From contig JAFSAO010000014.1 of the NCBI GenBank assembly GCA_017440935.1, positions 1-64,000 on the forward strand: a DNA stretch of 64,000 nucleotides, in the 5' to 3' direction. The stretch is from Opitutales bacterium (GTDB taxonomy: Bacteria; Verrucomicrobiota; Verrucomicrobiia; Opitutales; UBA953). Shown piece after piece: positions 49,301 through 64,000 of the stretch. Both the position numbers and the translations under genes were made by a program. Below the pieces are notes generated by a model, which did no database searches, was not told where the DNA came from, and worked only from the letters and a program-made list of their open reading frames with translations. The stretch's first letter is position 1, and every line of letters starts with the position of its first letter.

Positions 49301-49862
49301 TATTCTCCTCGATCGTAAGGAATACAAAAAAGCGTATGAGATTTTCAACGAAGCCATTGAAGGGAACGTTGCCTATATGCTTGAGCCGGATCTTCGCCTC
49401 GGTCGTGCGCAATCGCTCATCTTGATGTCGGATGCGGATGCTTCCGCGCTCAACATTGCCGATCGTTTTGAAAATGCGACGGCGGAACTCAACTACATCA
49501 AAAGCATCAAGGAATGGCGCGGACGCCCGACAGCGGCGGCTCTTTACTACCTCGGGCAGGTCAAGGAAATGAAGGCAGCGAAGGAGAAAGACCGGACAAA
49601 ACGCGAAGATTTGTATAAATCCGCAATCGGCGATTACCGCATTTGCTACCTGACGTGGAAAAAGTATCCGGAATTTGCCGCCAAGGCGATGCTCCGTGCG
49701 GGTATCGTGTTTAAGGATTTCCTCAAGCGTCCGAGCGACGGTGTGAACCCGTCCGACACGGAAGCTGCGAAGCTCCTCTTCCTGCAGATGACGGAACCCA
49801 CGAGCCGCTACAAAGATACGCCGGAAGGCAAAGAAGCCGCAAAGCTTCTTCAAACCATGTGA
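46353..49862 (+). CDS. Large periplasmic TPR protein
   Basis: 1169 residues with a signal peptide (about residues 1-32, SVFAQAA cleavage region) and tandem helical repeats of TPR type along the whole length (for example EAIAAFKALKNGKWKDWLE, AEAELKSFIEKYPKDPQL, SLVARARGLYAESVIYDN). No enzymatic motif. It is followed within 23 nt by another secreted repeat protein and then ExbB-ExbD-ExbD, the arrangement of energised envelope complexes in which the TPR proteins may be periplasmic partners. No Shine-Dalgarno motif precedes the ATG. Few CGGGAAC words occur in it. Confidence 0.85.
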   Translation: MLKKSRSYALATAALAAVFIALSPMTAPSVFAQAAPAQPKKSPLELEAEAAYKLANEKKYPEAIAAFKALKNGKWKDWLESNDMISSIDYQIAACLIAQKNWTAAEAELKSFIEKYPKDPQLTDVRLSLVNCYIQQERWEDARVTVDSILKWLERNPNPGLAIKAMLARVDLLQREGAAKDKAGTKPPDGVESWEKLALATSAQNLYNLTNNNINSAEMIEARQKLINIYRKLGRVGEANALKEKVDAYISGKGGALDPASLIRSNMQNLEVGDDYFSQAQDIDVEMASDEEFARRQELFRQALQIYQGVMRKDALMKCFGPALEMSKAAVEAAKKQGGEAPDEKAQARIDKAEEELAQIEEYKTGFDENKDFDALISFRIGASLISLDRFWEAYVAFGDILQNHKDFDLLSTATYYYILTLRAMGRDDEAQAECKKFIDTFKDNKEKGDELGRVALLLGQISYDKGDYKDAIAQLEWVKKNVSKLPLDVNCQIDWFIIAANFSRCPWGILNDEEKEYIKGMGKPGYKPKLSAESQNTLSLIDSFLEKYQTNADFSPVVEEMLYRRALLFFYSTMLPETKAAFEVYVDKYPEGQFIPDARYRLAVVQNGIRPPQTQDVVSRCTNWIKDYFDVDDKTVLNSLAVPKLREDVSVNIADSVAYQLPEVYTLLGDANKSLAEAVKGSETRKGIGNKKIAKFTQSDLRKKQKYMDASVDAYILAAKTARYNPDALYFSLNELDKQLPQLEGGYARLLDLYNTLYNWDPSSPEALGYLFKKVDYTVRKARSEAQKMPQPEKLAHIAKAQDETRKIMADAILKNINDPRQDGVETLIDDLASRFADKVKKHPAPKEGEIPKPRDPDEYTVEKAVADMKTLLKLTGDTQASLVARARGLYAESVIYDNLAFLNARRNVPESNRLASKRDDLYRSLASQHKPDELSPMILSKVGAYLLDRGDTKKAEEFFQYVLDFYKGSESAEFSFEGEGRILLDRKEYKKAYEIFNEAIEGNVAYMLEPDLRLGRAQSLILMSDADASALNIADRFENATAELNYIKSIKEWRGRPTAAALYYLGQVKEMKAAKEKDRTKREDLYKSAIGDYRICYLTWKKYPEFAAKAMLRAGIVFKDFLKRPSDGVNPSDTEAAKLLFLQMTEPTSRYKDTPEGKEAAKLLQTM

Positions 49863-49885
49863 ACCCCTTCAACTAATTCACGAAA

Positions 49886-51067
49886 ATGAAAAAGAAATTT
49901 TTGCAGTTCCTTGCTCTTGCGGCTCTCATCGCCGTTCCCGCGACTTTCGCCTTCGCACAGGCCGCTCCCGCGGCTTCTGCTGTGGGAGACGTGATTAAGG
50001 CGAAAGACACGAAAAAGAAAAAACGCGTTGTCATCAAATTCGGTTTTGAAAAACCGGTGCGCCAGACCTGGGAAATCAATTACCCGGAAAAGCTTCTTCC
50101 TCCCGGTGCCAAGAAGCCGAAGGCGAAACTGACTGCGGCAAATCTGAAAGATTCTCCGCGCGGTATCATGGTTGTTAAGGAAAACATCGACCTGCAAACG
50201 GGAATGCGCTTTACCGACGAGCTCCCGTTGAAAGACGTTATCGGCATCATTTGGGAAAACGAAACTCAACTCAAGGATGCGCGCAACGATCTTTCGCAGG
50301 GCAATCCTGCCGCCGCGCTTGCTACGGCGGAACGTTTCCTCGCATTTTTCAAAGATTTGAAGGCAATTCCGGGTTCGCTCTGGCTTGAAGCCGCCGTGAT
50401 TAAACTCGACGCGCTCGACCTTCAGGAAAACGATACGATTATGGATTCGTTTATTCGCGAACTTCAGGACGCTCCCGGTTGGGAAAAAATTGAAGGTTTG
50501 CCGGAACGCATCAAAATCGTCCGTCTCCGCCAGCAGCTCCGCAAGGGCGATTACCAACGCGTGTTGCGCGATGCGACCGAAATGATGAAGACCGTCGATT
50601 CTCCCGAAACGAACGCACAGCTCACGATGCTCAAAGGTCGTGCGGAATTCAATCTCGGCAAATACGAAGACGCACTCTATACGTTCCTGCGCGTTCCCGT
50701 GTTCTACGGCAACCAGACGGAATTCGTTCCCGCGTCGAAACTTGAAGTCGCCCGTTGTTTCCTTAAGCTCGACGGTCCGGATCGCAAGGCGCAGAATCTG
50801 CCGAAGCTCGCGGAATCCTACATCATGGAAGTCGTAACCGAGTATCCGATGACCCCGGAAGCCAAGGAAGCGCTCGCACTTTTGCCGAAGGACAAACAGG
50901 CGGAACTTGCCGCACGCGATTCGCTCGCGGAAGATCAGAAACGCGCACTCGTTGCCGCGTCTATCGGTTCGTCCGATGAGTCCGCAGAAGCCGTCAGCGA
51001 CGGGAGCGAAGATCTCATTGTCGAAGACGAAGAAGAAATCGAAATTGACGATTCCGACGAAGAATAA
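49886..51067 (+). CDS. Secreted helical-repeat protein with acidic tail
   Basis: 393 residues. Signal peptide (about residues 1-24, FAFAQAA). A basic KAKDTKKKKR stretch, a beta-rich segment (about 50-125) and TPR-like helices (about 130-330) follow. The C-terminus is strongly acidic (IVEDEEEIEIDDSDEE). I do not recognise a specific family. Position between the large TPR protein and ExbB suggests a role in the same envelope complex. Confidence 0.75.
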   Translation: MKKKFLQFLALAALIAVPATFAFAQAAPAASAVGDVIKAKDTKKKKRVVIKFGFEKPVRQTWEINYPEKLLPPGAKKPKAKLTAANLKDSPRGIMVVKENIDLQTGMRFTDELPLKDVIGIIWENETQLKDARNDLSQGNPAAALATAERFLAFFKDLKAIPGSLWLEAAVIKLDALDLQENDTIMDSFIRELQDAPGWEKIEGLPERIKIVRLRQQLRKGDYQRVLRDATEMMKTVDSPETNAQLTMLKGRAEFNLGKYEDALYTFLRVPVFYGNQTEFVPASKLEVARCFLKLDGPDRKAQNLPKLAESYIMEVVTEYPMTPEAKEALALLPKDKQAELAARDSLAEDQKRALVAASIGSSDESAEAVSDGSEDLIVEDEEEIEIDDSDEE

Positions 51068-51150: not shown

Positions 51151-51996
51151 ATGAATATGAAATTGCGCAAACTCCTCCCGCTGTTCGTTCTCGGAGCAGC
51201 TCTCGTCCCGACATTCCTGTTCGCGCAGGAAGCCGTTGAACCCGCCGCAGAAGCGGCAACCGAAGCCGTTTCCGAAGACAGCTTTCTCGATACGCTCAAG
51301 CAGGGCGGTTGGGTTATGTGGCCGCTGCTGTTCTGCTCTATTGCGCTCGTTTGGCTTACGGTGGACGGGTATATGCGCTCCATGATTAAGCGCATGTTCC
51401 CGCCGGCGCACATTGAGCAGATTCGCACCCTCTTCCAGAGCGGGGACTATCGCGGAGTTTATGAATTCTGCAAAGCGAATCCTTCTACGCTTTCGGACGT
51501 TGTCCGCATGGGTGTCGTCTTCCTTCCTGACGGAAAAACGATGACGGAAGAAGCGATCTTCTCGGAAATTTCCCGTATTAAGGCGGGCTTTGACGCTCGT
51601 ATTTCTTACCTCTCCGTTATCGGGGTTTGCGCCCCGATGGTCGGTCTTCTCGGGACCGTTACGGGGATGAAAGGCGCGTTCGGTGCTCTCGGTAAGGAAG
51701 GTGTCGGCGGCGGCGGTGCAGGCGAACTCGCCGGGCACATCGGGGAAGTTCTTGTCGCTACGGCTTCCGGTCTCGCGGTTTCCATCCCGGCGTTCTTCTT
51801 CTTCTACCTCCTCCGCAACCGTATCACGACGGTCCTCCACGACTTGCAGGAAGTCGTTACCGGTCTCTTCCGTAAGATGCCTTACGAAAAGTTTGAAGGC
51901 TATCAGATCGGCGACGAAGAAATCTACGCTGCGATGCCGAATTGGGTCGCTGCGGAAGAAGGCGAAGAAGCTCCTGCGGAAGAACAACAGGCGTAA
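51151..51996 (+). CDS. exbB: MotA/TolQ/ExbB proton-channel protein with signal-like N-terminus
   Basis: 281 residues. The C-terminal two thirds form the proton channel: GWVMWPLLFCSIALVWL as first helix, then SYLSVIGVCAPMVGLLGTVTGM and VLVATASGLAVSIPAFFFFYLLRNR. An N-terminal hydrophobic segment ending in FAQEAVEP (about residue 24) looks like a cleavable signal, followed by an acidic Ala/Glu-rich linker, a variant seen in some ExbB proteins. An acidic Glu-rich tail ends the chain. It works with the two ExbD proteins encoded next. Confidence 0.93.
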   Translation: MNMKLRKLLPLFVLGAALVPTFLFAQEAVEPAAEAATEAVSEDSFLDTLKQGGWVMWPLLFCSIALVWLTVDGYMRSMIKRMFPPAHIEQIRTLFQSGDYRGVYEFCKANPSTLSDVVRMGVVFLPDGKTMTEEAIFSEISRIKAGFDARISYLSVIGVCAPMVGLLGTVTGMKGAFGALGKEGVGGGGAGELAGHIGEVLVATASGLAVSIPAFFFFYLLRNRITTVLHDLQEVVTGLFRKMPYEKFEGYQIGDEEIYAAMPNWVAAEEGEEAPAEEQQA

Positions 51997-52046
51997 TAGC
52001 GCGTTCCCGCGCTTTTCGTTAACTTTTATCTGAAAAGGATTGACCT

Positions 52047-52514
52047 ATGGCCAGTAGCGGTGGCGGAAATGGCGAGCCGGAATTTCAGATTGCGCCGATG
52101 CTCGACGTGCTCTTCGTTTTGCTCATCTTCTTTATGAGCATTTCGACGTCGCAGATGTTGAAGATCGACACCAGCATTACGTTGCCTGTCGCTTCCAACG
52201 GTGCAGAACCCGATCCCAAAACTAAAGCAAAAGCCGTGCTCATCAACGTCAGTTGGGACAAAACGCTGGGGCAACCCATCGTCAAACTCGACGATACGCT
52301 GATCGACATTACGGAGCAGGGACGCGACAAAGCCGTGGAAAACATTATTTCCCGTGCGACCAATCCGTATACGAAAGAAATTGACCCCGAGGTTCGCTTC
52401 CTCATTCGCGCAGACAGACAGATCCCGGCAAAATACATCAGCCAGGTTCTCATGCTCGCGGCGGACGCGGGAATGGATAACATCGCCTTCACAGGCATGA
52501 GTAAGGACGACTAA
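52047..52514 (+). CDS. exbD: ExbD/TolR biopolymer transport protein (first copy)
   Basis: 155 residues: a short Gly-rich cytoplasmic start, one membrane helix PMLDVLFVLLIFFMS with the proton-carrying aspartate, and a periplasmic domain with RADRQIPAKYISQVLMLAADAG. A Shine-Dalgarno AAGGA lies about 9 nt before the ATG. The stop is 2 nt before the ATG of the second copy. Confidence 0.93.
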   Translation: MASSGGGNGEPEFQIAPMLDVLFVLLIFFMSISTSQMLKIDTSITLPVASNGAEPDPKTKAKAVLINVSWDKTLGQPIVKLDDTLIDITEQGRDKAVENIISRATNPYTKEIDPEVRFLIRADRQIPAKYISQVLMLAADAGMDNIAFTGMSKDD

Positions 52515-52516
52515 TC

Positions 52517-52969
52517 ATGAAAAGAGTTCCAGCGGAAGAACCGGCAAATCTCGGTTTCCAGATCGCGCCGATGCTCGACGTCGTCTTCGTCATTCTCCTT
52601 TACTTCATGGTCTTGGCGGGAACGGCGAAAGTCGAATACGAAATCAAAACGACGCTCCCGGGTTCGGCGGAAGTTTCTACCGCCGTTTCTGATGAGTTGC
52701 CGCCCGATGAAGTCGTTATCGGCATTTCCGCCGAAGGCGAAGTTTCTCTCAACGATGACCCGATCGGGCAACCCGGCGATATTAAGATGAACGACCTCTA
52801 CGTGGAAATGCGTAATCTTGCGGATGCCGCGTTGCAGTCGCAGACGAAGATCATCGTTACCGTCGCCGCCGAAGAAACGGTCGTTTACGACCGAATCATG
52901 AACGTGCTCGACGTTCTCGCGAAAGCGAAAATTTCCAACGTTACGTTCAGCACAACCGAAGGCGAATAA
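52517..52969 (+). CDS. exbD: ExbD/TolR biopolymer transport protein (second copy)
   Basis: 150 residues with membrane helix PMLDVVFVILLYFMVLAG including the conserved aspartate, and a periplasmic domain with VTVAAEETVVYDRIMNVLDVLAKAKI. It is clearly related to, but diverged from, the first copy, suggesting a hetero-dimeric ExbD pair as in AglS/AglR-type systems. A bidirectional terminator follows. Confidence 0.92.
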   Translation: MKRVPAEEPANLGFQIAPMLDVVFVILLYFMVLAGTAKVEYEIKTTLPGSAEVSTAVSDELPPDEVVIGISAEGEVSLNDDPIGQPGDIKMNDLYVEMRNLADAALQSQTKIIVTVAAEETVVYDRIMNVLDVLAKAKISNVTFSTTEGE

Positions 52970-53077: not shown

Positions 53078-54751
53078 CTAATCTCCTCTGCGGCGGAGGA
53101 TAATCCACGAAAGCCACGCAGTCCAAATCGCGGCAATAATAAATCCGGTAACTCCGAGATGGTGTGCGAAGCCGCGTGTTTCGTTTCCGACGAATGAATC
53201 CGAGCACACCAAAAGTGCCGACGCAACCAAAAGCGCGCCGATGATAAGTGCGAGCGAAAGCCGGTTGGTCGCCTTGTCGAGCGTCGTTCGCATCGAGCTC
53301 AGCCCTCGATGTTCAATCTCGATTTTGGCGTCGCCTTTTTCGATTTTCCAAAGAATACGCTGAACGGATTCCGGCATTTCCTTAACGTAGGCAAACTGGC
53401 GCTCGATTCCGTGAACTGCGTCGCCGACGAGCGTTTTCGGATTCCAGCGTTCCATGTAAAGGCGGTTCAGCGCTTCTTTCGCGAAATGTTGAATGTTGAA
53501 ATCCGGGTCGGCAGCGCGTCCGGTTTCTTCCATAACGATGACGGATTTCGCAAGCAATGCGTAGTCGCGCGGGAGCGGTAAGCCGCAGTCGGAAAACACG
53601 CGCAACATATCGAAAATCATGTGTCCGAGAGAGCCGTCCTTTTGTTCAAAATTCTGGTGCCGCCGCAACACAACGGCGATTTCCGATTCCGCCTTCGCTT
53701 TGTTGATTCGCTCCGCCGGCGGATACGTTTTCAAAACGACCTGCAAAACTTTTTCCGCCTCGCCCGCCGCTGCCGCCGCAAAAATATCGGCAAGGAAGTA
53801 GCGCATCTTACGCGAAAGCGTTCCCGCGACGCCCCAATCGATGAAGCAAACGCGATTGTCCGGCGTGAGCAAAACATTTCCGCTGTGCGGATCCGCATGA
53901 AAAAATCCCGCCGTGAAAATTTGGTGAAAAAGGGAACGCGCCCCGCTCGCCGCCGCTTCCGGCGCGGGAACGCCGCTTTTTCCGGGAGCCACACCGTCAA
54001 TCCACTGCGAAACAAGCACGCGTGCGGTCGAATATTGCGGAAAAATTTTCGGCGCAAAAACGTTCGGGAACGGATTTTCCGCGTTAAAATACTCGGAATT
54101 GCGTGCTTCAAAGGAAAAATCCGTTTCCCGCAACACACCGTCCCGAATTTCGGCAAGAATTCCCGCAAGGTCGTAGAACGCGAGCTCGGGAAAACGCTCC
54201 ACCGCGCGATCCACGAGCCACACGAGAATTTCAAAATCCCGCGTCATATCACGCGCCGCGCCCGGCCTGCGGATTTTCACCGCAACTTCTTCCCCGCTTT
54301 TCAGACGCGCGCGGTAAACTTGCCCGACACTGCCTGCCGCTGCGGGAACGGTATCAAACTCGGAAAAATATGCATCAATTCCGTTTTCGAGTTCCGCATT
54401 GAAAACAGGCTCGATTTGTTCCCACGGAACGGGAGAAACGCTGTCGCGCAGTTGTTTCAGCTCCTCGATGAGCGGCGCCGGCAAAATATCTTCACGCGTG
54501 CTGATGATTTGCCCGAATTTGACGAAAGTCGGTCCGAGTTCTTCGCAGGTTACGCGAATGCGTTTCCAGAGCGTTATGCTTTTGTCGGGCTTCGGAATGA
54601 TGTGCCGAAAAAACGATTTCGGACTGTAAATTTTGTCGATGAGTTCGTTAAACCCGTTGCGCAACAACACGACGAAGATTTCCTTCGCGCGGATTCCGTT
54701 GCGCAACATCGCAAACGTTTTTAACGGCGATTTTTTTCGGGTCGAAAACAT
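53078..54751 (-). CDS. ubiB: ABC1/UbiB-family atypical kinase
   Basis: 557 residues. The N-terminal KxGQ signature is FVKFGQIISTREDILP, the alanine-rich nucleotide loop is AAGSVGQVYRARL, the ion-pair lysine is in EEVAVKIRRPG, and the metal/catalytic region is FHADPHSGNVLL ... CFIDWGVAG. Two membrane helices end the protein (about residues 495-550). Family members support ubiquinone or other isoprenoid-quinone metabolism; no ubi or men genes are adjacent. The length and layout are typical. Confidence 0.92.
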   Translation of the reverse strand: MFSTRKKSPLKTFAMLRNGIRAKEIFVVLLRNGFNELIDKIYSPKSFFRHIIPKPDKSITLWKRIRVTCEELGPTFVKFGQIISTREDILPAPLIEELKQLRDSVSPVPWEQIEPVFNAELENGIDAYFSEFDTVPAAAGSVGQVYRARLKSGEEVAVKIRRPGAARDMTRDFEILVWLVDRAVERFPELAFYDLAGILAEIRDGVLRETDFSFEARNSEYFNAENPFPNVFAPKIFPQYSTARVLVSQWIDGVAPGKSGVPAPEAAASGARSLFHQIFTAGFFHADPHSGNVLLTPDNRVCFIDWGVAGTLSRKMRYFLADIFAAAAAGEAEKVLQVVLKTYPPAERINKAKAESEIAVVLRRHQNFEQKDGSLGHMIFDMLRVFSDCGLPLPRDYALLAKSVIVMEETGRAADPDFNIQHFAKEALNRLYMERWNPKTLVGDAVHGIERQFAYVKEMPESVQRILWKIEKGDAKIEIEHRGLSSMRTTLDKATNRLSLALIIGALLVASALLVCSDSFVGNETRGFAHHLGVTGFIIAAIWTAWLSWIILRRRGD

Positions 54752-54791
54752 CGAAAAAGTTTGAGGTTTTTAAAAACTTCGGCGTTCGCGC

Positions 54792-55142
54792 TTAATTTTC
54801 GACGTCCTGCGCGGGAGCGGCGCACGGTGCTTCCGCGGGAACGCATCCGAGTTTCGCTTCGAGCGCGGCAACGCGTTGTTCGAGCAATTCGATGCGCTTG
54901 GCGCAAGTTAGGCTTTCAAGCGCTTCCTCGCCGCGCGCTTTCGCCTTTTCGTAAAACGCCTTTGCGTCCTCTTCGCCACGCGCCGCTGCCTTGTCAAAAG
55001 CCGCCTTCGCGTCTTCTGCCGAGAGCTTTCCCTTGTTCACCAAATCCGTCAGCGCGGATTTGACCGCGTCGGCAGACATTACGGTGGCGCCGACTCCGGC
55101 GAAAAGCGTTTTTTTCAGAGTTTCCTGCAGATTTTCGAGCAT
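54792..55142 (-). CDS. Phasin-like small protein
   Basis: 116 residues from the ATG at 55142 (MLENLQETLKKTLFAGVGAT). A longer in-frame reading to 55268 adds an implausible basic leader. The start and the MSADAVKSALTDLVNKGKLSAEDAK segment resemble polyhydroxyalkanoate-granule associated / phasin-type proteins, ending in an alanine-rich coiled coil (LLEQRVAALEAKLG). No PHA synthase gene is in the window, so granule association is unproven. The gap 55143-55316 holds no gene. Confidence 0.6.
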   Translation of the reverse strand: MLENLQETLKKTLFAGVGATVMSADAVKSALTDLVNKGKLSAEDAKAAFDKAAARGEEDAKAFYEKAKARGEEALESLTCAKRIELLEQRVAALEAKLGCVPAEAPCAAPAQDVEN

Positions 55143-55316
55143 AGTGTTTCTTTGTGTTTGGGGTGAATGAAATTTTTGCGGACGTTCCCGCACGCCCGAA
55201 TTCTGCATGAAAAATTCGGCGTGGCGAGAATTTATTAAAAAGCGTCGCTGCCGCTCGTGTTCGTTCAACTTTTTTATTTCGGTGGCGCGGCAAGGTCGCC
55301 CGTTTTATCCGAGGCG

Positions 55317-56165
55317 TTAATTCAATTCGTAAATGATGGGGACGACGAAGGCGGCGGGAAGGGCAGAGCGCGTTCCCGCGGGGGCGGAAAAATCTTCGGC
55401 GACACGGCGCAGGGTTTCCTCCGCACCGGAAATGAGAGATTTGTGCGCGGAGGATTTTTCGACGGAAAACGCGGAGATTTTCCCGTCGGCGTCAATTTTT
55501 ACCTGCACGGAAACCGTTCCCGTGCGCCCGTTGCGACGTGCCGCTTTCGGGTAGAATTTTTTGCGGGAAACAGCTTCGGCAAGCGCTCCGTAAAGCGTTT
55601 GTTCGGCGGCGGCTTTTGCGGCGAAATCTTCGACAGGCGCGGGAACGGGCGGGCTCGGCGGCGGTTGCTGCGCAACTTGCGGCGGCGGAACAAAATCCTG
55701 CGGTTTTTGCTCGGGCGGCGTTTCTTCCGGCGGCTCCGGAACTTTTTCCGGTTCGGGCGGCGGCGGTTCTTCTTTTGGCGGAATTTCGGGAGCAGGTTGT
55801 TCGCAGAGCGTTTCGCGAATCGCGGAGTCGTCGATTTTTTCCGGCACGGTCGTTTCCGCCGGAGCTTCGGGAATCGGTTCCGGCGGTGCAGGGATTTCCG
55901 GCGCAGGCGGCGTTTCCTCCGGTGCGTTTTCGACCTCCGAAATTTCGGCTACGGGAACGAAATTTTCCAGCCGGACGACAATTCGCGCGGGAACATTTTC
56001 CGCGATTTCCTCGGCGGCTTCACGTTCCGGGAGTGAAAACGATTTCTCTGCGGCAAACGCAAGCGTTCCCGCAAATAAAATGAAGCAAAAGAAAGCGGAT
56101 GCGCCGGAGCTGACGCGCTCGGCATCCTCAATGTTCTTTTTCAACCATGAAAAGCAGGTTTTCAT
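55317..56165 (-). CDS. tonB: TonB-family energy transducer
   Basis: 282 residues. There is one N-terminal membrane anchor (about residues 24-41, FFCFILFAGTLAFA). A 120-residue Pro/Glu-rich periplasmic spacer follows (PPAPEIPAPPEPIPEAP and similar). A C-terminal TonB domain (about residues 190-282) has RRNGRTGTVSVQVKIDADGKI and the YP motif as FYPKAARRNG. It connects the ExbB-ExbD motor to outer-membrane receptors such as the one at 62401. Its start overlaps the end of exbD by 38 nt. Confidence 0.92.
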   Translation of the reverse strand: MKTCFSWLKKNIEDAERVSSGASAFFCFILFAGTLAFAAEKSFSLPEREAAEEIAENVPARIVVRLENFVPVAEISEVENAPEETPPAPEIPAPPEPIPEAPAETTVPEKIDDSAIRETLCEQPAPEIPPKEEPPPPEPEKVPEPPEETPPEQKPQDFVPPPQVAQQPPPSPPVPAPVEDFAAKAAAEQTLYGALAEAVSRKKFYPKAARRNGRTGTVSVQVKIDADGKISAFSVEKSSAHKSLISGAEETLRRVAEDFSAPAGTRSALPAAFVVPIIYELN

Positions 56166-56538
56166 TGCCCTGTTTTTTTGCTGCGTCCATGAGTTGCATC
56201 ACAATTCCGAACGGCGCGGATTTGTCCGAAAAAACTTCAAAAATTTTGCCTTCGTGCTCCTTGAATTTTTGCGGGAGCGACTCGGGAAGTATAGCTTCAC
56301 CGTCAAAAAACAGCGTTCCCGCCGCATCGACGGTAATCGCACAAACAGGCGTTTTTTCGTTTTCGGAAACGATTTTTGCGCTTTCCGCATCGGGGAGCGC
56401 GACTTCGAATTTCGGCTTCACGAACGTCGTCGCGATGATGAAAAAAATCAAAAGCATGAAAATGACATCGATTAACGGCGTCAGTTCGATGCTGATTTCG
56501 TCGTCTGCGTCAAAATCCTCAATATTCGGACAGTGCAT
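56128..56538 (-). CDS. exbD: ExbD/TolR protein of the TonB motor
   Basis: 136 residues from the ATG at 56538 (MHCPNIEDFDADDE). The membrane helix LTPLIDVIFMLLIFFIIATTF carries the conserved aspartate, and the periplasmic domain has FGIVMQLMDAAKKQG. A longer frame to 56646 would run into the repeat element and is not favoured. It partners the ExbB encoded upstream and TonB encoded downstream. Confidence 0.92.
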   Translation of the reverse strand: MHCPNIEDFDADDEISIELTPLIDVIFMLLIFFIIATTFVKPKFEVALPDAESAKIVSENEKTPVCAITVDAAGTLFFDGEAILPESLPQKFKEHEGKIFEVFSDKSAPFGIVMQLMDAAKKQGNENLLFMVEKEH

Positions 56539-56570
56539 TATTTCAACGGATAAATGATAAAGGGAACTTT

Positions 56571-56681
56571 GATTGAGAGGTGATAGCTTAGAGCTGAGAG
56601 GTATTACCGAAAAAAGAATTTCAAAAACCTTTTTTGCCGCAGGCAAAACGCATTTACCTCTCAGCTCTCAACTCTCAACGG
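56571..56681. repeat. Composite palindromic element, AGAGCTGAG type with TTTTGCC core
   Basis: The left arm GAGAGGTGATAGCTTAGAGC... (56575-56602) and right arm TACCTCTCAGCTCTCAACTC (56654-56673) are inverted copies built from degenerate 7-8 nt units. The core TTTTGCC-GC-AGGCAAAA spans about 56632-56648. It sits inside the exbB-exbD-tonB operon, between exbB and exbD. Confidence 0.85.
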
Positions 56682-56696
56682 TTTCTAAAAGCAAAT

Positions 56697-57320
56697 TCAA
56701 TCATCGCTTTGCGCCGCCTTGGCGATGGCGACGGCGCGGTAAGAAAATTCGACGGCGACGATCATACACCCGAGCAGTTTGTGGCGCAGGTAGAACAAAA
56801 CGGCGAGCGTCGGCACGGCAATTACGATCCCGAGCACGGTTGTCCAAAGCGCCTGCCCGATTCCGAGTGCGAGTTTCGCGTTGTCCGCCGCCGCGTTCCC
56901 GCCGTGTCCGATGACTTCAAAAACCTGAATGATTCCGAGCACGGTTCCGAGCAAACCGAGGAGCGGCGCGGTCGCGGTGATGAGACGTAGCGTCGTGAAG
57001 TTGCGCTTCGTTTCGTAAAAGTATCGATGAAAAAGATACGCAGATTCGGAGCGCAAGTCGTCCGAATGGTGGCGGTGTTTTGTCGCGATGTCGCGCACGA
57101 CGCGGACAAGCGGATTTTTTTCGAGGCGCGATTCGTCGAGCAAAAGTGCGGTGTTCCCGTTTTCGACTTGTTTGAAAAAACGGCGGAATTGCAATTCGAC
57201 GAGCCAGAATTTCAGGTAAATTTTTACCGAAAGAAAAACGGCGAGCAAAAGCGATGCTGCCAGAGGAATTCCGACGGGACCGAGTTTTTCGTAGTATTCG
57301 GCGCAGTAGTGTTGAAGCAT
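56697..57320 (-). CDS. exbB: ExbB/TolQ proton-channel protein of the TonB motor
   Basis: 207 residues, three membrane helices. LRLITATAPLLGLLGTVLGII and LWTTVLGIVIAVPTLAVLFYLRHK are the two signature helices. Unlike the ExbB at 51151 it has no signal-like extension. First gene of the exbB-exbD-tonB set, 18 nt after the ECF ATPase gene, so the motor and the ECF transporter are probably co-transcribed. Confidence 0.93.
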   Translation of the reverse strand: MLQHYCAEYYEKLGPVGIPLAASLLLAVFLSVKIYLKFWLVELQFRRFFKQVENGNTALLLDESRLEKNPLVRVVRDIATKHRHHSDDLRSESAYLFHRYFYETKRNFTTLRLITATAPLLGLLGTVLGIIQVFEVIGHGGNAAADNAKLALGIGQALWTTVLGIVIAVPTLAVLFYLRHKLLGCMIVAVEFSYRAVAIAKAAQSDD

Positions 57321-57338
57321 ATTTTTTATGGTTATTTG

Positions 57339-58751
57339 TTAAATTTCGATTTTGTAGGTGGCGAGAAGCGAGAGGAATTCGAGGTCGTGAGTGATGAGCA
57401 AAACCGTGTTCCCGCGCGCGGCGTAGTCGCGAAGCATGGCGGCGATGATGCGCATATTGCGTCCGTCGAGTCCGCTGGTCGGCTCGTCAAGCACGAGCAG
57501 GGACGGTTTTTTCATCAAAACGGATGCGATGACGAGGCGTTGTTTTTCGCCGCCGGAAAGGGATTGCGGATGGCGTTCCCGTTTGTCGGAAAGTCCGATT
57601 TCGTCGAGCAGCGCGAGGGCTTCGCGCTCGGCATCTTTTCGGGAAAGCGGCGAAGACGAAACGAGTTCTTCAAGAACGGTGCGCATGTAAAGTTGGATGT
57701 CCGTGTTCTGCATGACGAATCCGCCGTCGTCGAGTAGTTGCGCGGCTTTCGCGGGAGCTTCGTTTTTCAAAATGATTCCGCCGTTTTTTCGGGGAAGTTT
57801 TAAAAGTCCGGTAATGATTTTTGCAAAAGTTGTTTTGCCTGCTCCGTTTTTTCCGACGACGGCTGTGATTGCGCCCCGCGGGATGCGGAAATCGCGGGAA
57901 CCGTCGAAAATTTCCTTTTCGGAATTCGGGTATTTGAAAACGATTTTCTCGCAATGAAGCGCGGCGGGAGCATCGGCGGGGATTTCGGCAAGCGGCGGAT
58001 CCGCGGGAACGCGAACTTTGCGAAGCCCGAGCGCGTGCTCGCTTTCGACGGAATCGAGTTCGGTGAGCGCGTTCCCGTCGGCGCGTTCGATGCGGCGCAC
58101 GATTTTTCCTTCGTTTAAAATCAGGATTTTGTCGGGAACGCCGTCGAGCCAGTAAATGCGGTGATCTACGATAACAATGGTGAAACCGTCGCGTTTGAGT
58201 TCGCGGCAAAGCGCGGCAAGTTCTTCCGTTGCTTCCGGGGAGAGATTTGCCGTTGGTTCGTCAAAAACAAGAATGCGCGGTTGCATCGCGACGGCGGAGG
58301 CGATGACGGTTTTTTGCTTTTCGCCGGAAGAAAGCCCGAAAAGACTGCGGGAACGTAAGTGTTTGAGTCCGAGACGTTCGATTGCCGCGTCCGTGCGGCG
58401 TAAAATTTCTTCGCGAGAATCGAGGCGCCATTCGAGGCTTCCCGCGATGTCGCTCTCGACGGTCATAGCGAGAAACTGACTGTCGGGATTTTGGAAAACG
58501 GACCCGACCTGCGCGGAAACTTCGGCGAGGCTTTCCGGTTCGCGCCCGGCGATTTTGACGCTTCCGCGAAGTTCTCCGCGAAAGTGAAAAGGAATCAGTC
58601 CGTTGAGCACGCGCAGAAGCGTGGATTTTCCGCAACCGGACGGTCCGGAAATCAAAATCGCTTCGCCTTCGCCGAGCGAAAATGAAATATCCGTCAGCGC
58701 ATCTTTTTGCGCGAACGGGTAGCGGTAGGAAAGTTTTTCAACAGAAATCAT
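57339..58751 (-). CDS. ECF transporter ATPase, two ATPase domains fused
   Basis: 470 residues with two complete ABC ATPase domains in one chain, equivalent to EcfA and EcfA'. Domain 1: Walker A GPSGCGKST, signature LSSGEKQK, Walker B ILVFDEP. Domain 2 (from about residue 250): Walker A GKNGAGKTT, signature LSGGEKQR, Walker B LLVLDEP. It powers import together with the T and S components encoded next to it. The start lies 18 nt after the EcfT stop. Confidence 0.92.
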   Translation of the reverse strand: MISVEKLSYRYPFAQKDALTDISFSLGEGEAILISGPSGCGKSTLLRVLNGLIPFHFRGELRGSVKIAGREPESLAEVSAQVGSVFQNPDSQFLAMTVESDIAGSLEWRLDSREEILRRTDAAIERLGLKHLRSRSLFGLSSGEKQKTVIASAVAMQPRILVFDEPTANLSPEATEELAALCRELKRDGFTIVIVDHRIYWLDGVPDKILILNEGKIVRRIERADGNALTELDSVESEHALGLRKVRVPADPPLAEIPADAPAALHCEKIVFKYPNSEKEIFDGSRDFRIPRGAITAVVGKNGAGKTTFAKIITGLLKLPRKNGGIILKNEAPAKAAQLLDDGGFVMQNTDIQLYMRTVLEELVSSSPLSRKDAEREALALLDEIGLSDKRERHPQSLSGGEKQRLVIASVLMKKPSLLVLDEPTSGLDGRNMRIIAAMLRDYAARGNTVLLITHDLEFLSLLATYKIEI

Positions 58752-58769
58752 GAAAGGAAGCCTTCGGCT

Positions 58770-59633
58770 TTAATGAACAAAAGTTTCGGCGGGGGCGGGG
58801 AGGATGAATTTCAGCGTCCAAATCACGGCGGCGGCGCAAAAGGTGAACACCAAAACGCTCCAATCGCGGGAACGTATTTTGTGTTCGGCGGCGCAAATAC
58901 AACGTTCCGAACAACCGATGCGGCGCACTTCGCACATCAGCACGAGATTGTCCGCAATCCGCAAGGTGCGCACGCATACGGGAACGACGACGTAGCGCAG
59001 GAATTGCATCGGCGCAGCAACGAGCGAAAGGAAATTCATTTTGCGGCGCCGGACGCGCAGGCTTTCGTAAAGCTGGCGAATGTCGTCCACGAAGCTCGGA
59101 ACAAAGCGGCAACAAATCATCAGCGGAATAAAGACGATGCGTGCGAGCCGCATTTTTCGCATTACGGAAATAAATTCCTGATTGTCGAAAGTCAGTCCGA
59201 ATGCGAGAAAAACGTTCATGCTCACGGAAATGCGCAGAAACGGAAGCAGGACAGTCGCAAAACCCTGCTCGTCGAGAATCGAAGCGAGGCGGCGAAAGCC
59301 GTCGGCAATTTGCGCGGGAACGCTTCCCGCAATCGCGTTCACGAACCAAACGAATGCGGGAATAAAGCAAAACGCGAAGCCGAGCATCAGCGCCGTTGCC
59401 GCATACATCACCGCAACGGGTTTGAAGCGGCGCAAACTCAACACATAAACAAACGTCAGCGCGTTGAGCGCAACCAGCAGCCGCCAGTCGTTCAGAAAAA
59501 TTGACGTGCTCGATGCCGCGAGCGAAATGAGCAACTTCGTGCGCATATCGAGCGTCGCGACGAAAGGCTTTTTTGTATTTTCGGAATCAATACGTTTTTG
59601 AATCATCTGAGATTTTTTCCTGTCACTTGTCAC
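58770..59633 (-). CDS. ECF transporter T component
   Basis: 287 residues with four to five membrane helices. The cytoplasmic coupling region contains RVRRRKMNFLSLVAAP and, near the C-terminus, ADNLVLMCEVRRIG at the position of the Ala-Arg-Gly coupling motif of EcfT/CbiQ proteins. It links the S component to the ATPases. The gene lies 19 nt after the S-component gene. Confidence 0.85.
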   Translation of the reverse strand: MTSDRKKSQMIQKRIDSENTKKPFVATLDMRTKLLISLAASSTSIFLNDWRLLVALNALTFVYVLSLRRFKPVAVMYAATALMLGFAFCFIPAFVWFVNAIAGSVPAQIADGFRRLASILDEQGFATVLLPFLRISVSMNVFLAFGLTFDNQEFISVMRKMRLARIVFIPLMICCRFVPSFVDDIRQLYESLRVRRRKMNFLSLVAAPMQFLRYVVVPVCVRTLRIADNLVLMCEVRRIGCSERCICAAEHKIRSRDWSVLVFTFCAAAVIWTLKFILPAPAETFVH

Positions 59634-59652
59634 GATTCAATGTCTACCGATT

Positions 59653-60228
59653 TCACTCTTCTCTGATCAGTCCTGCGTGGCGGAGTTCTTTAACGAATTT
59701 GTAGCCGGCGGGAAGCCCGACGAGCACACTCCCGCAGTAACCGAGAATGATCATCACCGCTCCCGCCGCTACGAGCTGCAGATTTTCGCGCATGACGAGA
59801 AAACTCAAACTGAGCGAGATCACGCGGGAAAACAAATCATACATCGCAACGCCGGCGAGCACGCTCAGCGTGTTTTTGTAGCCGCCCGCCGCCGAGATGA
59901 TTAAATCGCTCAGCAACGCCGCCAAGAGATTTGCGGGAGCGAGAAAAATCATAATCGAGCCCGACATGAAAAACGAAATGACGACATTGACGAAGCAATA
60001 AAGACAAAGCACGCCGAACTTGCGCACGCGGCAAACGAGCACGATGAGCAACGCCGTCGTCAATCCGTTGCGGATAAAGAGCGAAATCGGATTCGGCCCG
60101 CCGCCGACCAGGCCGATGGCGAGCGACGACAGGCGAATCAGCGCGGAAAAAATCCCGACGAGCACGAGATGCTCCGTCGTCCAATAAAATTTTTTCAGCG
60201 CGGGAACGGTTTTTGCGGGAACGCTCAT
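59653..60228 (-). CDS. ECF transporter substrate-binding (S) component, probable
   Basis: 191 residues, six predicted membrane helices, the size and topology of ECF S components (for example LVLVGIFSALIRLSSLAIGL at the N-terminus, AALLSDLIISAAGGYKNTLS in the middle). I do not recognise a substrate class from sequence. Its position, 1 nt after the HutW-type gene and directly before the T and A genes, points to haem or a related tetrapyrrole; a corrinoid or vitamin is the alternative. Confidence 0.75.
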   Translation of the reverse strand: MSVPAKTVPALKKFYWTTEHLVLVGIFSALIRLSSLAIGLVGGGPNPISLFIRNGLTTALLIVLVCRVRKFGVLCLYCFVNVVISFFMSGSIMIFLAPANLLAALLSDLIISAAGGYKNTLSVLAGVAMYDLFSRVISLSLSFLVMRENLQLVAAGAVMIILGYCGSVLVGLPAGYKFVKELRHAGLIREE

Positions 60229-60229
60229 T

Positions 60230-61591
60230 TTATGCCGTCGCCTCCGCGGGAACGCGTTCGTGATTATGCCGCGCGGAGGCGATTTGCGTCAGCATACCCA
60301 TGACGAGCGAAATCAGCGTAACGTGCCAATATTCGCCGAGCGGCGAAAGCGTGTAGCGGCGCTCGCCGTCGGGAAGGAGAATCCCTGCGCGTATCCAATT
60401 TTTCCAAACATTTTGCGCGTCTTCCGCGAGAAATTCCGGCGAAATTTCCGCCGGTTCGAGGAATCCGAGTTCGAGCTGGTGCGTGACGATGTTTTTCACG
60501 CGGATTCCCGGATTGTCCGGCACGGCAACCATCAGCCCCTTTTTCCCGGCTGCGACTGTTTCCGTGTATTTTTGCAAATCCGGCATTTGCATAAAGCTGA
60601 ATCCGCCGAGAAAACCTCCGGCGCGGGAACCGAACGGAACGAGTTCCATGCCCGTTTTCGTGCCGTGGTTATACCAGTTGCGTTCGAGCGAAGTGCGACC
60701 CCAATGCGTCATCGAAAGGCGTTTCCAGCCAAGTTTTGAAAGGCGTTCCCGCGCGGTCATAAAGAGCGCGAAGCGTTCGTCATAGCTCAAATCTTTTCCT
60801 GCGCGGGTGAGGCTTGTGCCCGGCAAAAGTTTGAGTTGGTAAAGGTCGGCGCCGTCCACGGGAACGACTTCAGTAATCATGCGCAAATCTTCGTCCCAGA
60901 GTTCCGGCGTTTGTCCGGGAAGCCCGTAGATAAAATCGAGCATGAGCGCGACGTTGTTCCCGCCGATTTTTTTCACGAGCGAAAGGCGTTCGACGAGTTC
61001 TTCTTTCGACATGATTCGTCCGAGCTTGCGGCGCAGAGCGGTGTCAAACGTTTGCACGCCGAAGGAAAAACGGTTTACGCCGTTGTCGACGCAGGCTCGG
61101 ATTTTTTCTTCGTCAAATCCGCTCGTGCGCCCTTCGACGGTAAATTCGCGGTCGGCGGCGACGTTGAAATTTTTGTAAATGAACGAAACGAGGTCGGCGA
61201 GATTGTGCGCGGAAAGGTCGGTCGGCGTGCCGCCGCCGAAGTAAACGACGTTGATTTCTTCCTGCGCAAGGCGCGGCGATTCCGCGAGCGCGTTTTGCAT
61301 CTCGCGAATGACGGTTGCGGTGTAGCCGTCGAGGTCTGCCGTGCGCGTCGCGTTGGAATAAAAACTGCAAAACGAGCAGCGATGCAGGCAAAACGGCACG
61401 TGAACGTAGAGTGCTCGGCGTGCGGTGCGCTTGGGCGCGGAAGCGGCTTTCGCCCACGCGTCGAGCGGAGAGGGCGGCGGAGCAGCGTTCCCGCGGCGGC
61501 GGAAGTTTTCGGTGTGGCTGAAGTGTTTCTTTTCTTCGAGCCGGGCAACGACTTCTGCCGAGTTTTCGGGAAAAAGGAAATCTGAAAACAT
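60230..61591 (-). CDS. hutW: HutW/ChuW-type radical SAM haem-opening enzyme
   Basis: 453 residues. The 4Fe-4S cluster motif C-x3-C-x2-C is CLHRCSFC (Cys68, 72, 75). HemN-like features include VYFGGGTPTDLSAHNLADLV, EFTVEGR, NRFSFGVQTFDTALRRKLGR and DFIYGLPGQTPELWDEDL. HWGRTSLERNWYNHGTK and PFGSRAGGFLGG distinguish the HutW/ChuW/HmuW group from the coproporphyrinogen dehydrogenase HemN. Members open haem without oxygen by methyl transfer (anaerobilin synthase in ChuW). A HemN-like C-terminal domain is present. Flavodoxin upstream and ECF S component downstream support haem use. Confidence 0.9.
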   Translation of the reverse strand: MFSDFLFPENSAEVVARLEEKKHFSHTENFRRRGNAAPPPSPLDAWAKAASAPKRTARRALYVHVPFCLHRCSFCSFYSNATRTADLDGYTATVIREMQNALAESPRLAQEEINVVYFGGGTPTDLSAHNLADLVSFIYKNFNVAADREFTVEGRTSGFDEEKIRACVDNGVNRFSFGVQTFDTALRRKLGRIMSKEELVERLSLVKKIGGNNVALMLDFIYGLPGQTPELWDEDLRMITEVVPVDGADLYQLKLLPGTSLTRAGKDLSYDERFALFMTARERLSKLGWKRLSMTHWGRTSLERNWYNHGTKTGMELVPFGSRAGGFLGGFSFMQMPDLQKYTETVAAGKKGLMVAVPDNPGIRVKNIVTHQLELGFLEPAEISPEFLAEDAQNVWKNWIRAGILLPDGERRYTLSPLGEYWHVTLISLVMGMLTQIASARHNHERVPAEATA

Positions 61592-61640
61592 AAGGTATCT
61601 TTAGCGGATAATAATCCGTGAGTTTTCGGAGAATACTTCG

Positions 61641-61776
61641 ATGGCTGAGAGGTGAGAGCTGAGGGCTTAGAGGTAAGTGCTTTTAAGGAATTAGAAATTA
61701 GGAAGATGACTCATTTCTAATTTTTAACTTCTCGTTGCGCGAAGCGCGGGTAATACCTCTAAGCTCTAAGCCGTCA
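61641..61776. repeat. Composite palindromic element, AGAGCTGAG type with nested hairpins
   Basis: The left arm ATGGCTGAGAGGTGAGAGC... (61641-61677) and right arm ...CTCTAAGCTCTAAGCCGTCAT (61752-61776) are inverted. Nested inside are AATTAGAAATTAGG (61689-61702) against ATTTCTAATTTTTAA (61714-61728), and a GCGC-GAA-GCGC hairpin near 61736-61746. It is in the gap between the flavodoxin and hutW genes; its arms match those at 56571-56681. Confidence 0.85.
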
Positions 61777-61791
61777 TCTATCTGTCTTATT

Positions 61792-62289
61792 TTAAAAAAG
61801 GTTTCTGAACGCGTCTTTTGCGGCTTCGAGGTCGGCGGCATCCGGATGCTTTGCGGCTTCCGCCCAACGGTGAAGGCGCTCCGGATTCGGCGCGTGCGGA
61901 TGTTCTTTCGGAAGTTTGCTCATCCAGGCCGTGAGTTTCGGATCGATTGCCCCTTGGCACCAGAATTTCGCAATCACTTCGCAGTTTTCGCCGAGAAGTT
62001 TTACACCGTTGTCGAAAGAATCCTGTGCGTGGGGCGAGTGCGGGAACGCGCCGAGCGTGAAGAAAATGCCGACCTTTTTCCCGCAGATTTTCGGCATATA
62101 TGCCGCCATTTCCGTGTTTGCGGTGCCGCGGTCCACCCAGTAACCGACGGCGACAAAATCGTAGGCGGCGGGATCCGGCGCGTTTTCGACGGGATAAATC
62201 TCCGTTCCCGCGGGCAGGACGGAAAGAATGGCTTCGGCGACTTTGCGCGTATTGCCTGTTTTGGAAGAATAAACAATCAGGGATTTCAT
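61792..62289 (-). CDS. Flavodoxin-family protein next to the haem enzyme
   Basis: 165 residues. The FMN phosphate loop is YSSKTGNTRKVAEAI (about residues 7-21). VGYWVDRGTAN, GIFFTLGAFPHSPHA and WCQGAIDPKL follow, a pattern of a distinct flavodoxin subgroup. Chain ends with a helical segment RLHRWAEAAKHPDAADLEAAK. Such a flavodoxin is encoded with HmuW in Fusobacterium (HmuF, as I recall), where it acts on the opened tetrapyrrole or supplies electrons. That pairing is the basis for the functional guess here. Confidence 0.85.
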   Translation of the reverse strand: MKSLIVYSSKTGNTRKVAEAILSVLPAGTEIYPVENAPDPAAYDFVAVGYWVDRGTANTEMAAYMPKICGKKVGIFFTLGAFPHSPHAQDSFDNGVKLLGENCEVIAKFWCQGAIDPKLTAWMSKLPKEHPHAPNPERLHRWAEAAKHPDAADLEAAKDAFRNLF

Positions 62290-62326
62290 CGTGTGTTTTT
62301 AATTTTTGTTTTCGTAAAAGTGTTTC

Positions 62327-62388
62327 GGGCTGCGGGAACGGTGTTGTTGCTATGGGTTTTCCTGTCCGAAGAGACGTTCCCGCAGCCC
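62327..62388. terminator. Long-stem inverted CGGGAAC pair between receptor and flavodoxin genes
   Basis: GGGCTGCGGGAACG (62327-62340) and CGTTCCCGCAGCCC (62375-62388) pair perfectly over 14 bp with a 34-nt loop. It lies just after the receptor stop codon on the - strand, but the T tail is weak in that direction (a stronger CTGTTTTT tail is on the + strand), so it may attenuate rather than stop transcription into the flavodoxin gene. Confidence 0.65.
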
Positions 62389-62400
62389 TGTTTTTCCTAA

Positions 62401-64000
62401 TCAGAAATCGTATTTAAGCGATGCCCAGAAGCTGCGCCCGGGCTGCAGATACGTCAGATTCGGGAGTTCGTATCGTTTGTCGGTGATATTGTCGATGCCG
62501 ACGGCGAGCGTAAGTTTTTCAAAAAATGCGCTCTTGTTTTTGTCGAAAATATCAAGCCCGACCGAGAAATTAAGCGTCGCCCAGCCGGATTGGCGGTCAA
62601 CTTTTGTTCCGCCGGTTGCCGTATCTTCGACTTCTTCCTTGGTGGCGGAATTTCCGCGAATATTGAAATCCGCCCACCAGTCGCGATTGCTTTCGGAATA
62701 GGTGGCGAGAACGCCGATTTTTCCGAAAAGTTCCGGCTGTCCGGTGTAATAGGTTGAGCCGGATGAATCGTCGAAACGACGACGCATGAGCGTGGCAACG
62801 GCGTAGGGCTTAATCGTCGCATCGTTCCCGAGTTCAAAAAGGTAGGACGCGGCAAGTTCCGCCCCGAACGTTCGCGCGGAATCGTAGTTGACGAACCAGA
62901 TTTGGTCGCCGATTGCGGAAGTTGTAGTGCGCGTTCCGATGTAATCGTCGGCATTTGTGTAGAAAACCGTTGCGTCGATATTCAGGTTCCCGTCGTTGTA
63001 GCGCGCACCGAGTTCGTAGCTGATGCTGGACTCGGGGTCGAGATTCGGATTGGGGTTGGTCGTCGTGCCCGCCATCGCCGAACCGATGTAGAGTTCGTTA
63101 ATCGACGCGTAGCGATATCCTTGGGCTACGGTTCCGCGAAACGTCCAATTTTCGATCTGCGAGTTTACGAGCGAGAGGGAGAACGTTGCGTTCGCATCGT
63201 CTTCGCTTTGGTTTGGAAGGATTTCGGTCGTCGTTCCCGCATTCGTTCCCGCGCGGCGGACAACATGAGACGTCCCGTCGTCAAACTCGTTTTTCACATA
63301 CGTTCCGCGGGCCCCGAGAACGAGATCCCAGCCTTCGGCAAAATTCCATTCGTCCTGTGCAAAAAGCGCGGCGGTAAGGATGTCCGCGTCGTAATCGTTC
63401 GTCCGCGTCATGTCGACGATGTAGCGATTTCCCGTCGGAAGCGTCATCCAATTTTGCGTGGCGGTTACTTCGTGCGAATCAAGTTTTACGTAGTCGATTT
63501 GCGCGCCGACAATGAGGTAGTGATCTTCCGCGATTACGAAATCCGCCTGCATTTCCGCCCCGTAGCCGTAGTGTTTGTTGCGGCGATCGGAATCAACGTT
63601 AATCGTCATCGGCGGAACAAACTGCGTGATGTCCTGAACAAAATGTTTGTCCGTTTTTTGGAAATACGCATCGACGCGGAATTTTACGAACGTCTCGGAG
63701 ATATCTTTGATTTCAAGAAAAAGACCGACCTTGTCACGATCCCAGCCCGGCAATTCCATGAAAACAAGATCGTCGCCGGAAGCGACTTCCGAACGCCCGC
63801 GAAACGACTCGATTTTGGTTCCGAAAGAAATATTTTCCGAAATATCGTAGGCGAGATACGCGCTCGTGTTTTGGAAACGATACGACGTGCGGTCTATGCG
63901 TCCGTCCGGCGACTCGATATCGCCGTGGTTTTCGTCAGAAAACGAAACCCGCGCCGCGAATCCGCCGTAACGCGCGTTCAGATCGTAATATTGGTCAAGC
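62401..64000 (-). CDS. TonB-dependent outer-membrane receptor (5' end beyond window), candidate haem receptor
   Basis: The frame stays open to the right edge; at least 532 residues are present, beginning LDQYYDLNARYGGFAARVSF. Features of the barrel's C-terminal half: YRYASINELYIGS and NPNLDPESSISYELGARY, the segments shared by haem/haemoglobin-type receptors (FRAP/NPNL consensus), many amphipathic strands, and the terminal SFWASLKYDF with a C-terminal phenylalanine. The plug domain and TonB box are not in the window. The substrate call (haem or similar) is taken from hutW, flavodoxin and TonB-motor genes downstream. Confidence 0.85.
   Translation of the reverse strand, partial: LDQYYDLNARYGGFAARVSFSDENHGDIESPDGRIDRTSYRFQNTSAYLAYDISENISFGTKIESFRGRSEVASGDDLVFMELPGWDRDKVGLFLEIKDISETFVKFRVDAYFQKTDKHFVQDITQFVPPMTINVDSDRRNKHYGYGAEMQADFVIAEDHYLIVGAQIDYVKLDSHEVTATQNWMTLPTGNRYIVDMTRTNDYDADILTAALFAQDEWNFAEGWDLVLGARGTYVKNEFDDGTSHVVRRAGTNAGTTTEILPNQSEDDANATFSLSLVNSQIENWTFRGTVAQGYRYASINELYIGSAMAGTTTNPNPNLDPESSISYELGARYNDGNLNIDATVFYTNADDYIGTRTTTSAIGDQIWFVNYDSARTFGAELAASYLFELGNDATIKPYAVATLMRRRFDDSSGSTYYTGQPELFGKIGVLATYSESNRDWWADFNIRGNSATKEEVEDTATGGTKVDRQSGWATLNFSVGLDIFDKNKSAFFEKLTLAVGIDNITDKRYELPNLTYLQPGRSFWASLKYDF

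Follow-up and report, generated by a model that had tools for sequence, protein, structure and literature searches.

How could haem reach the cytosol of a Gram-negative bacterium that encodes a haem-opening enzyme of the HutW type and no HmuTUV-type importer? The question is raised by a 64,000-nucleotide stretch of DNA (the window; positions 1 to 64,000 of contig JAFSAO010000014.1, assembly GCA_017440935.1) from an Opitutales bacterium of the phylum Verrucomicrobiota. A single minus-strand operon occupies positions 55317 to 64000 of the window and begins at contig position 64605. With a probability of about 85%, this operon supplies by itself all that is needed to acquire haem iron without oxygen, with an energy-coupling factor (ECF) transporter taking the place of HmuTUV. 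Its genes, in their order on the minus strand, are as follows.

62401..64000, minus strand: TonB-dependent outer-membrane receptor, 734 amino acids, 5' end outside the window (PF00593, 136 bits; best NCBIfam match TIGR01785, TonB-hemin)
61792..62289, minus strand: HmuF/FldH-type flavodoxin, predicted to act in haem trafficking and anaerobilin reduction (PF12641; match to 8g64)
60230..61591, minus strand: HutW/ChuW/HmuW-type radical S-adenosylmethionine (SAM) enzyme, predicted anaerobilin synthase (TIGR04107, 384 bits)
59653..60228, minus strand: EcfS substrate-binding component, predicted to be haem-specific, 191 amino acids, six transmembrane helices (PF09605 Trep_Strep, 38.7 bits)
58770..59633, minus strand: EcfT transmembrane coupling component (PF02361, 37.8 bits)
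57339..58751, minus strand: EcfA, a single chain with two fused ATP-binding cassette (ABC) ATPase domains (ECF_ATPase TIGR04520, 294 bits; two ABC_tran stretches)
56697..57320, minus strand: ExbB proton-channel subunit (PF01618, 77 bits)
56128..56538, minus strand: ExbD (PF02472, 85 bits)
55317..56165, minus strand: TonB with a Pro/Glu-rich linker (PF03544, 47 bits)

From HutW through ExbB, neighbouring genes lie 1 to 19 bp apart, and ExbD and TonB overlap by 38 bp. The ExbD reading frame extends to a TTG at 56646, and by inspection translation more probably begins at the ATG at 56538. The receptor reading frame is complete and runs about 600 bp past the end of the window to contig position 64605 (L001:8402-10606). 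The original prediction of nine tightly spaced genes on one strand is borne out by these coordinates and by the family matches, but its low end at 53078 reaches too far, because positions 53078-54751 encode an ABC1/UbiB-like kinase outside the operon. A small separate open reading frame at 54792-55268 also lies apart from it. Among named relatives, the closest is an Opitutales bacterium from deer rectum (L053), whose EcfS and HutW are 94% and 96% identical to those of the window. The gene set is real rather than a chance grouping because it was found again in dozens of genomes of several phyla.

Families and folds of the operon's products

The window HutW scores 384 bits against TIGR04107, compared with 160 bits for HemW and 123 bits for HemN, and is 31% identical to E. 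coli ChuW. The CxxxCxxC motif of radical SAM enzymes is present at C68, C72, and C75. In an alignment of 40 proteins that includes ChuW, 47 positions are identical in at least 39. Membership in the HutW family rests on the scores (384 versus 160) because the HutW tree has no HemN or HemW outgroup. The enzyme is thus of HutW type, short of a confirmed family member, and its haem-opening activity is predicted from sequence.

The flavodoxin combines a flavodoxin fold with a helical cap and an axial histidine, the features that define the HmuF/FldH type. Its best match by sequence in the Protein Data Bank (PDB) is haem-bound FldH (8g64, E 1.6e-16). The same structure is the best match in Foldseek (template-modelling (TM) score 0.84, E 5.5e-13); the next best match has an E of 1.4e-6, and ordinary flavodoxins are far behind. 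Furthermore, His132 of the window protein aligns with His134 of FldH, the axial haem ligand (PMC10404700), and is invariant in 26 relatives. Binding of haem and flavin mononucleotide (FMN) and reduction of anaerobilin are therefore predicted functions of this HmuF/FldH-type protein.

The transporter has the make-up of a dedicated (group I) ECF transporter: the S, T, and A genes adjoin one another, the ATPase part has two domains, and the S component has six helices. EcfS matches Pfam Trep_Strep (the MptD family) and nothing else. A firm grouping of EcfS with a characterised vitamin transporter had been named beforehand as evidence against haem import; no such grouping was found, as 38 of the 42 members of this S family match Trep_Strep and none matches a vitamin S family. 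PDB sequence searches with EcfS gave nothing useful, and the lone match, a designed protein, was judged spurious. Structure prediction, which the original prediction had proposed, was informative about the fold but not about the substrate. The AlphaFold2 model has six helices (predicted local distance difference test, pLDDT, 84), and Foldseek places it among S components, with TM scores of 0.54 to 0.64 to 5edl, TmRibU, and ThiT and no E below 0.001. S components for thiamin, riboflavin, and pantothenate are about equally distant from it, and as a result the substrate is unreadable from the fold. The family conserves a GGGxNP motif and an Arg-Glu pair, and nearly all members also have a C-terminal RHAG motif. 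Haem specificity of EcfS is predicted from the gene neighbourhood of its family.

Linkage to HutW and exchange of importers

What ties this S family to haem? About 85,000 species genomes were scanned with the S family as the query and without the use of HutW. The scan found 43 loci with an S gene, and HutW lies beside the S gene in 39 of them. Three of the four HutW-less loci (L076, L081, and L094) are cut short on the side where HutW would lie. The fourth, L084 of Desulfocicer vacuolatum, is a real exception, with EcfS, EcfT, and EcfA of this family and no HutW. A HmuF-type flavodoxin is encoded in 32 of the 43 loci and a TonB receptor in 20. Carriers belong to Verrucomicrobiota, Kiritimatiellota, Lentisphaerota, Cloacimonadota, and Desulfobacterota, with a few bins labelled only Deltaproteobacteria. 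In other words, the survey that had been proposed for hutW beside ECF genes found this arrangement in at least five phyla. A scan of viral contigs and plasmids found no relatives. In the Desulfobacterota loci, ChuX/HutX is encoded between EcfA and the flavodoxin; a HugZ-fold (PNPOx) protein is found elsewhere. Cultured carriers include Desulfoluna butyratoxydans, Desulfoluna spongiiphila, and Desulfuromusa kysingii.

The original prediction held that a HmuTUV-type importer is missing and that an ECF transporter stands in its place, and the genome agrees with this. No FecCD (HmuU-type) permease was found near the locus or anywhere in the 1.84-Mb, 98%-complete genome, so that a hmuTUV set just outside the window, the other finding named beforehand as counter-evidence, is excluded as well. 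The genome encodes one EcfT, that of this operon, and one TonB-dependent receptor above the family cut-off, which is the operon's own. Across the survey, the 43 ECF loci are all free of ChuT- and ChuU-like genes. In the window's phylum, 388 genomes were compared: HutW has a strong match in 32, and the S gene is present in 13 and lies beside HutW in each of these. The probability of this by chance is 6e-16 when counted by genome and 2e-5 when counted by genus, neither value being corrected for phylogeny. Eleven HutW genomes of this phylum without the ECF genes carry FecCD within ~10 kb of HutW, and the ChuT- and ChuU-like genes of these loci match the E. coli references. Further evidence of exchange comes from the HutW tree, in which ECF-linked enzymes, FecCD-linked enzymes, and ChuW are intermixed. 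The importer label changes between ECF and FecCD at least three times on well-supported branches of this tree, which was built by a quick method and without an outgroup, and E. coli ChuW groups with the ECF-linked enzymes of Desulfobacterota. In a genome of the same genus without HutW, the S gene is missing too, and no TonB receptor scores above cut-off. Thus, the receptor, the importer, and the enzyme appear to be lost or gained as one set.

The expected loss of hmuTUV was seen in part of the carriers. Opitutales and most Kiritimatiellae-type genomes have no FecCD at all, but Desulfobacterota carriers keep FecCD permeases elsewhere in the genome, where they presumably serve other substrates. 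Replacement of the importer in Desulfobacterota is therefore at the locus and not genome-wide. Genome-wide FecCD loss as a general rule was ruled out: of 29 named carriers, 21 encode an above-cut-off FecCD at some other place in the genome.

Several further genes were seen at surveyed loci. In L084, the gene ahead of EcfS (L084:6895-7866) encodes a protein that weakly resembles Peripla_BP_2 and scores slightly below the cut-off, and in this locus a binding protein may act before the ECF importer. An ABC exporter-type half transporter (PF00664 plus ABC_tran) is encoded near the ECF-HutW cluster in Kiritimatiellae and some Desulfobacterota (L033:9460-11271, L045:7349-9163, L075:12346-14178), and it could export the opened tetrapyrrole. 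Loci of the Desulfuromusa type and related ones (L073:560-1498, L074, L075, L084, L089) repeatedly have a gene for a DUF4198 protein upstream of EcfS or of the TonB receptor. In L039-L043 (families f4 and f5), a HutW of the same order forms a separate clade and has no ChuT/ChuU-like or ECF genes within ~8 kb.

Proposed pathway and rival explanations

How would the parts work together? Computation establishes which genes are present, their families and folds, the conserved haem-ligand His of the flavodoxin, and the linkage. We infer the substrate of the receptor and the ECF transporter, the direction of transport, the hand-over steps, and regulation by iron from the company these genes keep. 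The receptor, driven by the TonB-ExbB-ExbD set of the operon, would move haem into the periplasm. EcfS would bind haem there, and EcfT together with the fused EcfA would drive it across the inner membrane, replacing HmuTUV. The flavodoxin would carry haem to HutW in the cytosol. HutW would open the ring without oxygen and free the iron, and the flavodoxin would then reduce the anaerobilin. A broader model goes further and takes the set as a binding-protein-free haem conduit in diderm anaerobes of several phyla. EcfS would take haem straight from the receptor and give it to HmuF and HutW, and the importer would have been repeatedly exchanged with HmuTUV around a constant ring-opening enzyme. 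The odds for this broader model appear evenly balanced.

A number of observations weigh against haem import by this operon. The window HutW, at 384 bits, misses the TIGR04107 equivalog cut-off of 400, while its ECF-linked relatives in four other lineages score 414 to 516 bits, above that cut-off. The FRAP/NPNL-type boxes of the receptor are present as YRYA and NPNL, but the Opitutales receptor has Met at the position of the ChuA His between the two boxes; the His that aligns with this ChuA haem ligand is retained in most Desulfobacterota receptors. No TonB-dependent receptor was found in seven f29 (Kiritimatiellae-type) genomes tested, G077 and G044 among them, although they have the ECF-HutW-HmuF set (L057-L068 and L091 group). 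The outer-membrane step must therefore differ there. In EcfS, the one near-invariant His (183/184) lies close to the C terminus, possibly on the cytosolic side, and the Met that is usual in the family (GGGMNP) is replaced by Pro in the window protein. The FecCD permeases kept elsewhere by Desulfobacterota count on the same side. Finally, the likeness to the haem-linked ECF sets of Gram-positive bacteria is one of gene content, the window EcfS being assigned to Trep_Strep/MptD.

Could the operon serve another purpose? The ECF transporter might import a vitamin or cofactor (cobalamin, thiamin, or riboflavin for the flavodoxin) and only share an operon with haem degradation. Most characterised ECF transporters do carry vitamins, and the closest solved fold, 5edl, is a vitamin S component. 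However, the S family matches no vitamin family, the eight loci examined contain no FMN, thiamine pyrophosphate, or cobalamin riboswitch, and no B12-binding-domain protein is encoded in the genome. Furthermore, linkage to HutW is near-universal, and the ECF loci lack ChuTU yet have the receptor, HutX, and HmuF. This explanation, without family, riboswitch, or B12-enzyme support, was rejected as very unlikely. The divergence of the Opitutales branch, with its His-to-Met change in the receptor, its Met-to-Pro change in EcfS, and a more diverged HutW, would fit a substrate other than haem b, for instance a chlorin derived from plants or some other metalloporphyrin present in the gut of herbivores, which a relative of HutW would open. 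Retention of the haem-ligand His of the flavodoxin argues against such a substrate, as do the 47 HutW positions shared with ChuW and the fact that the system is common to marine Desulfobacterota, and its chances are slim indeed.

A third explanation accepts haem as the substrate and assigns it mainly to use as a cofactor, with HutW merely clearing the excess. Cytochrome bd, a haem protein, is encoded in the genome. HemB is encoded too, which indicates that tetrapyrrole synthesis at least begins, and iron release is the better fit for a dedicated receptor and TonB set that comes with enzymes for ring opening and anaerobilin reduction. Cofactor supply as the main role is consequently unlikely, and acquisition of haem iron is the preferred reading.

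Flanking regions and comparison with known systems

A promoter-like element upstream of the receptor gene spans a 15-bp palindrome (TGAGACTTAGTCTCA at L054:3414 in locus L054, with variants elsewhere) that sits between -35-like and -10-like boxes; in the window's genome the site is at contig positions 64860-64874. The palindrome looks like a repressor operator. Fur-type boxes had been suggested as a check and the genome encodes two Fur-family regulators, but a Fur regulon is not supported because the palindrome, at up to 2 mismatches, occurs at one site only in this genome. A 47-amino-acid DUF2292 (PF10055) gene on the minus strand lies outside the window (L001:10693-10836, contig ~64692-64835), and its place between the promoter and the receptor gene is kept in four Opitutales loci. 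On the plus strand beside the operon, window positions 51151-52969 hold a second ExbB-like gene and two ExbD-like genes. Two long secreted proteins (46353-51067) precede this set, which belongs to a different TolQR/ExbBD-type system.

If haem is the substrate, ECF haem import reaches from Gram-positives into several Gram-negative phyla, a branch of the Trep_Strep/MptD family gains a testable substrate, and it becomes clear how Opitutales and Kiritimatiellae of the gut could use haem although they have no FecCD importer. The combination of HutW and ECF genes across Gram-negative anaerobes looks like a widespread, unstudied route of feeding on haem iron, and the cultured Desulfoluna and Desulfuromusa carriers make it testable. 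The original prediction knew of no characterised Gram-negative example. This holds for the open-licence literature (most subscription journals lie outside it), which contains no report of a Gram-negative ECF haem importer with TonB uptake and anaerobic ring opening, but ECF haem importers as such are known in Gram-positives. In Staphylococcus lugdunensis, which offers a precedent for such import, haem is bound by LhaS, and LhaSTA allows growth on it (PMC7299338). Another report lists siaFGH of group A Streptococcus as genes for the S, T, and A components of an ECF transporter (PMC6593403). In both, as in the window, haem-uptake genes are accompanied by an ECF S/T/A set of their own. They differ in that they are Gram-positive, without an outer membrane or TonB step and without coupling to HutW.

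Among Gram-negative systems, hmuTRUVWF of the anaerobe Fusobacterium nucleatum (PMC10404700) likewise unites a TonB receptor, the radical SAM enzyme HmuW, and the haem flavodoxin HmuF in one operon. Its inner-membrane step is carried out by HmuTUV (binding protein, FecCD permease, and ATPase), whereas here FecCD is absent and the step would fall to ECF S/T/A. The E. coli Chu locus (ChuA, S, T, W, X, Y, U, V; L097) and HutWXZ of Vibrio cholerae resemble the window in its predicted ChuW-type ring opening and in a receptor that may be of ChuA type, and HutX of these systems is also found in the Desulfobacterota ECF loci. The Chu system differs in having ChuT and ChuU in place of the ECF transporter, and a HmuF-type flavodoxin is encoded here where ChuY would act. 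BtuM, a cobalamin S component (PMC6072759), is similar as an S-component-type protein that takes a tetrapyrrole across the inner membrane in Gram-negatives without the usual FecCD importer, but it functions independently of an ECF module, comes from a different family, and transports B12. The operon is best read as a Hmu/Chu-like pathway with an ECF transporter as its inner-membrane importer. Each of its parts has a characterised relative, and the combination of an ECF transporter with a TonB-dependent, oxygen-independent haem pathway is, as far as we found, new.

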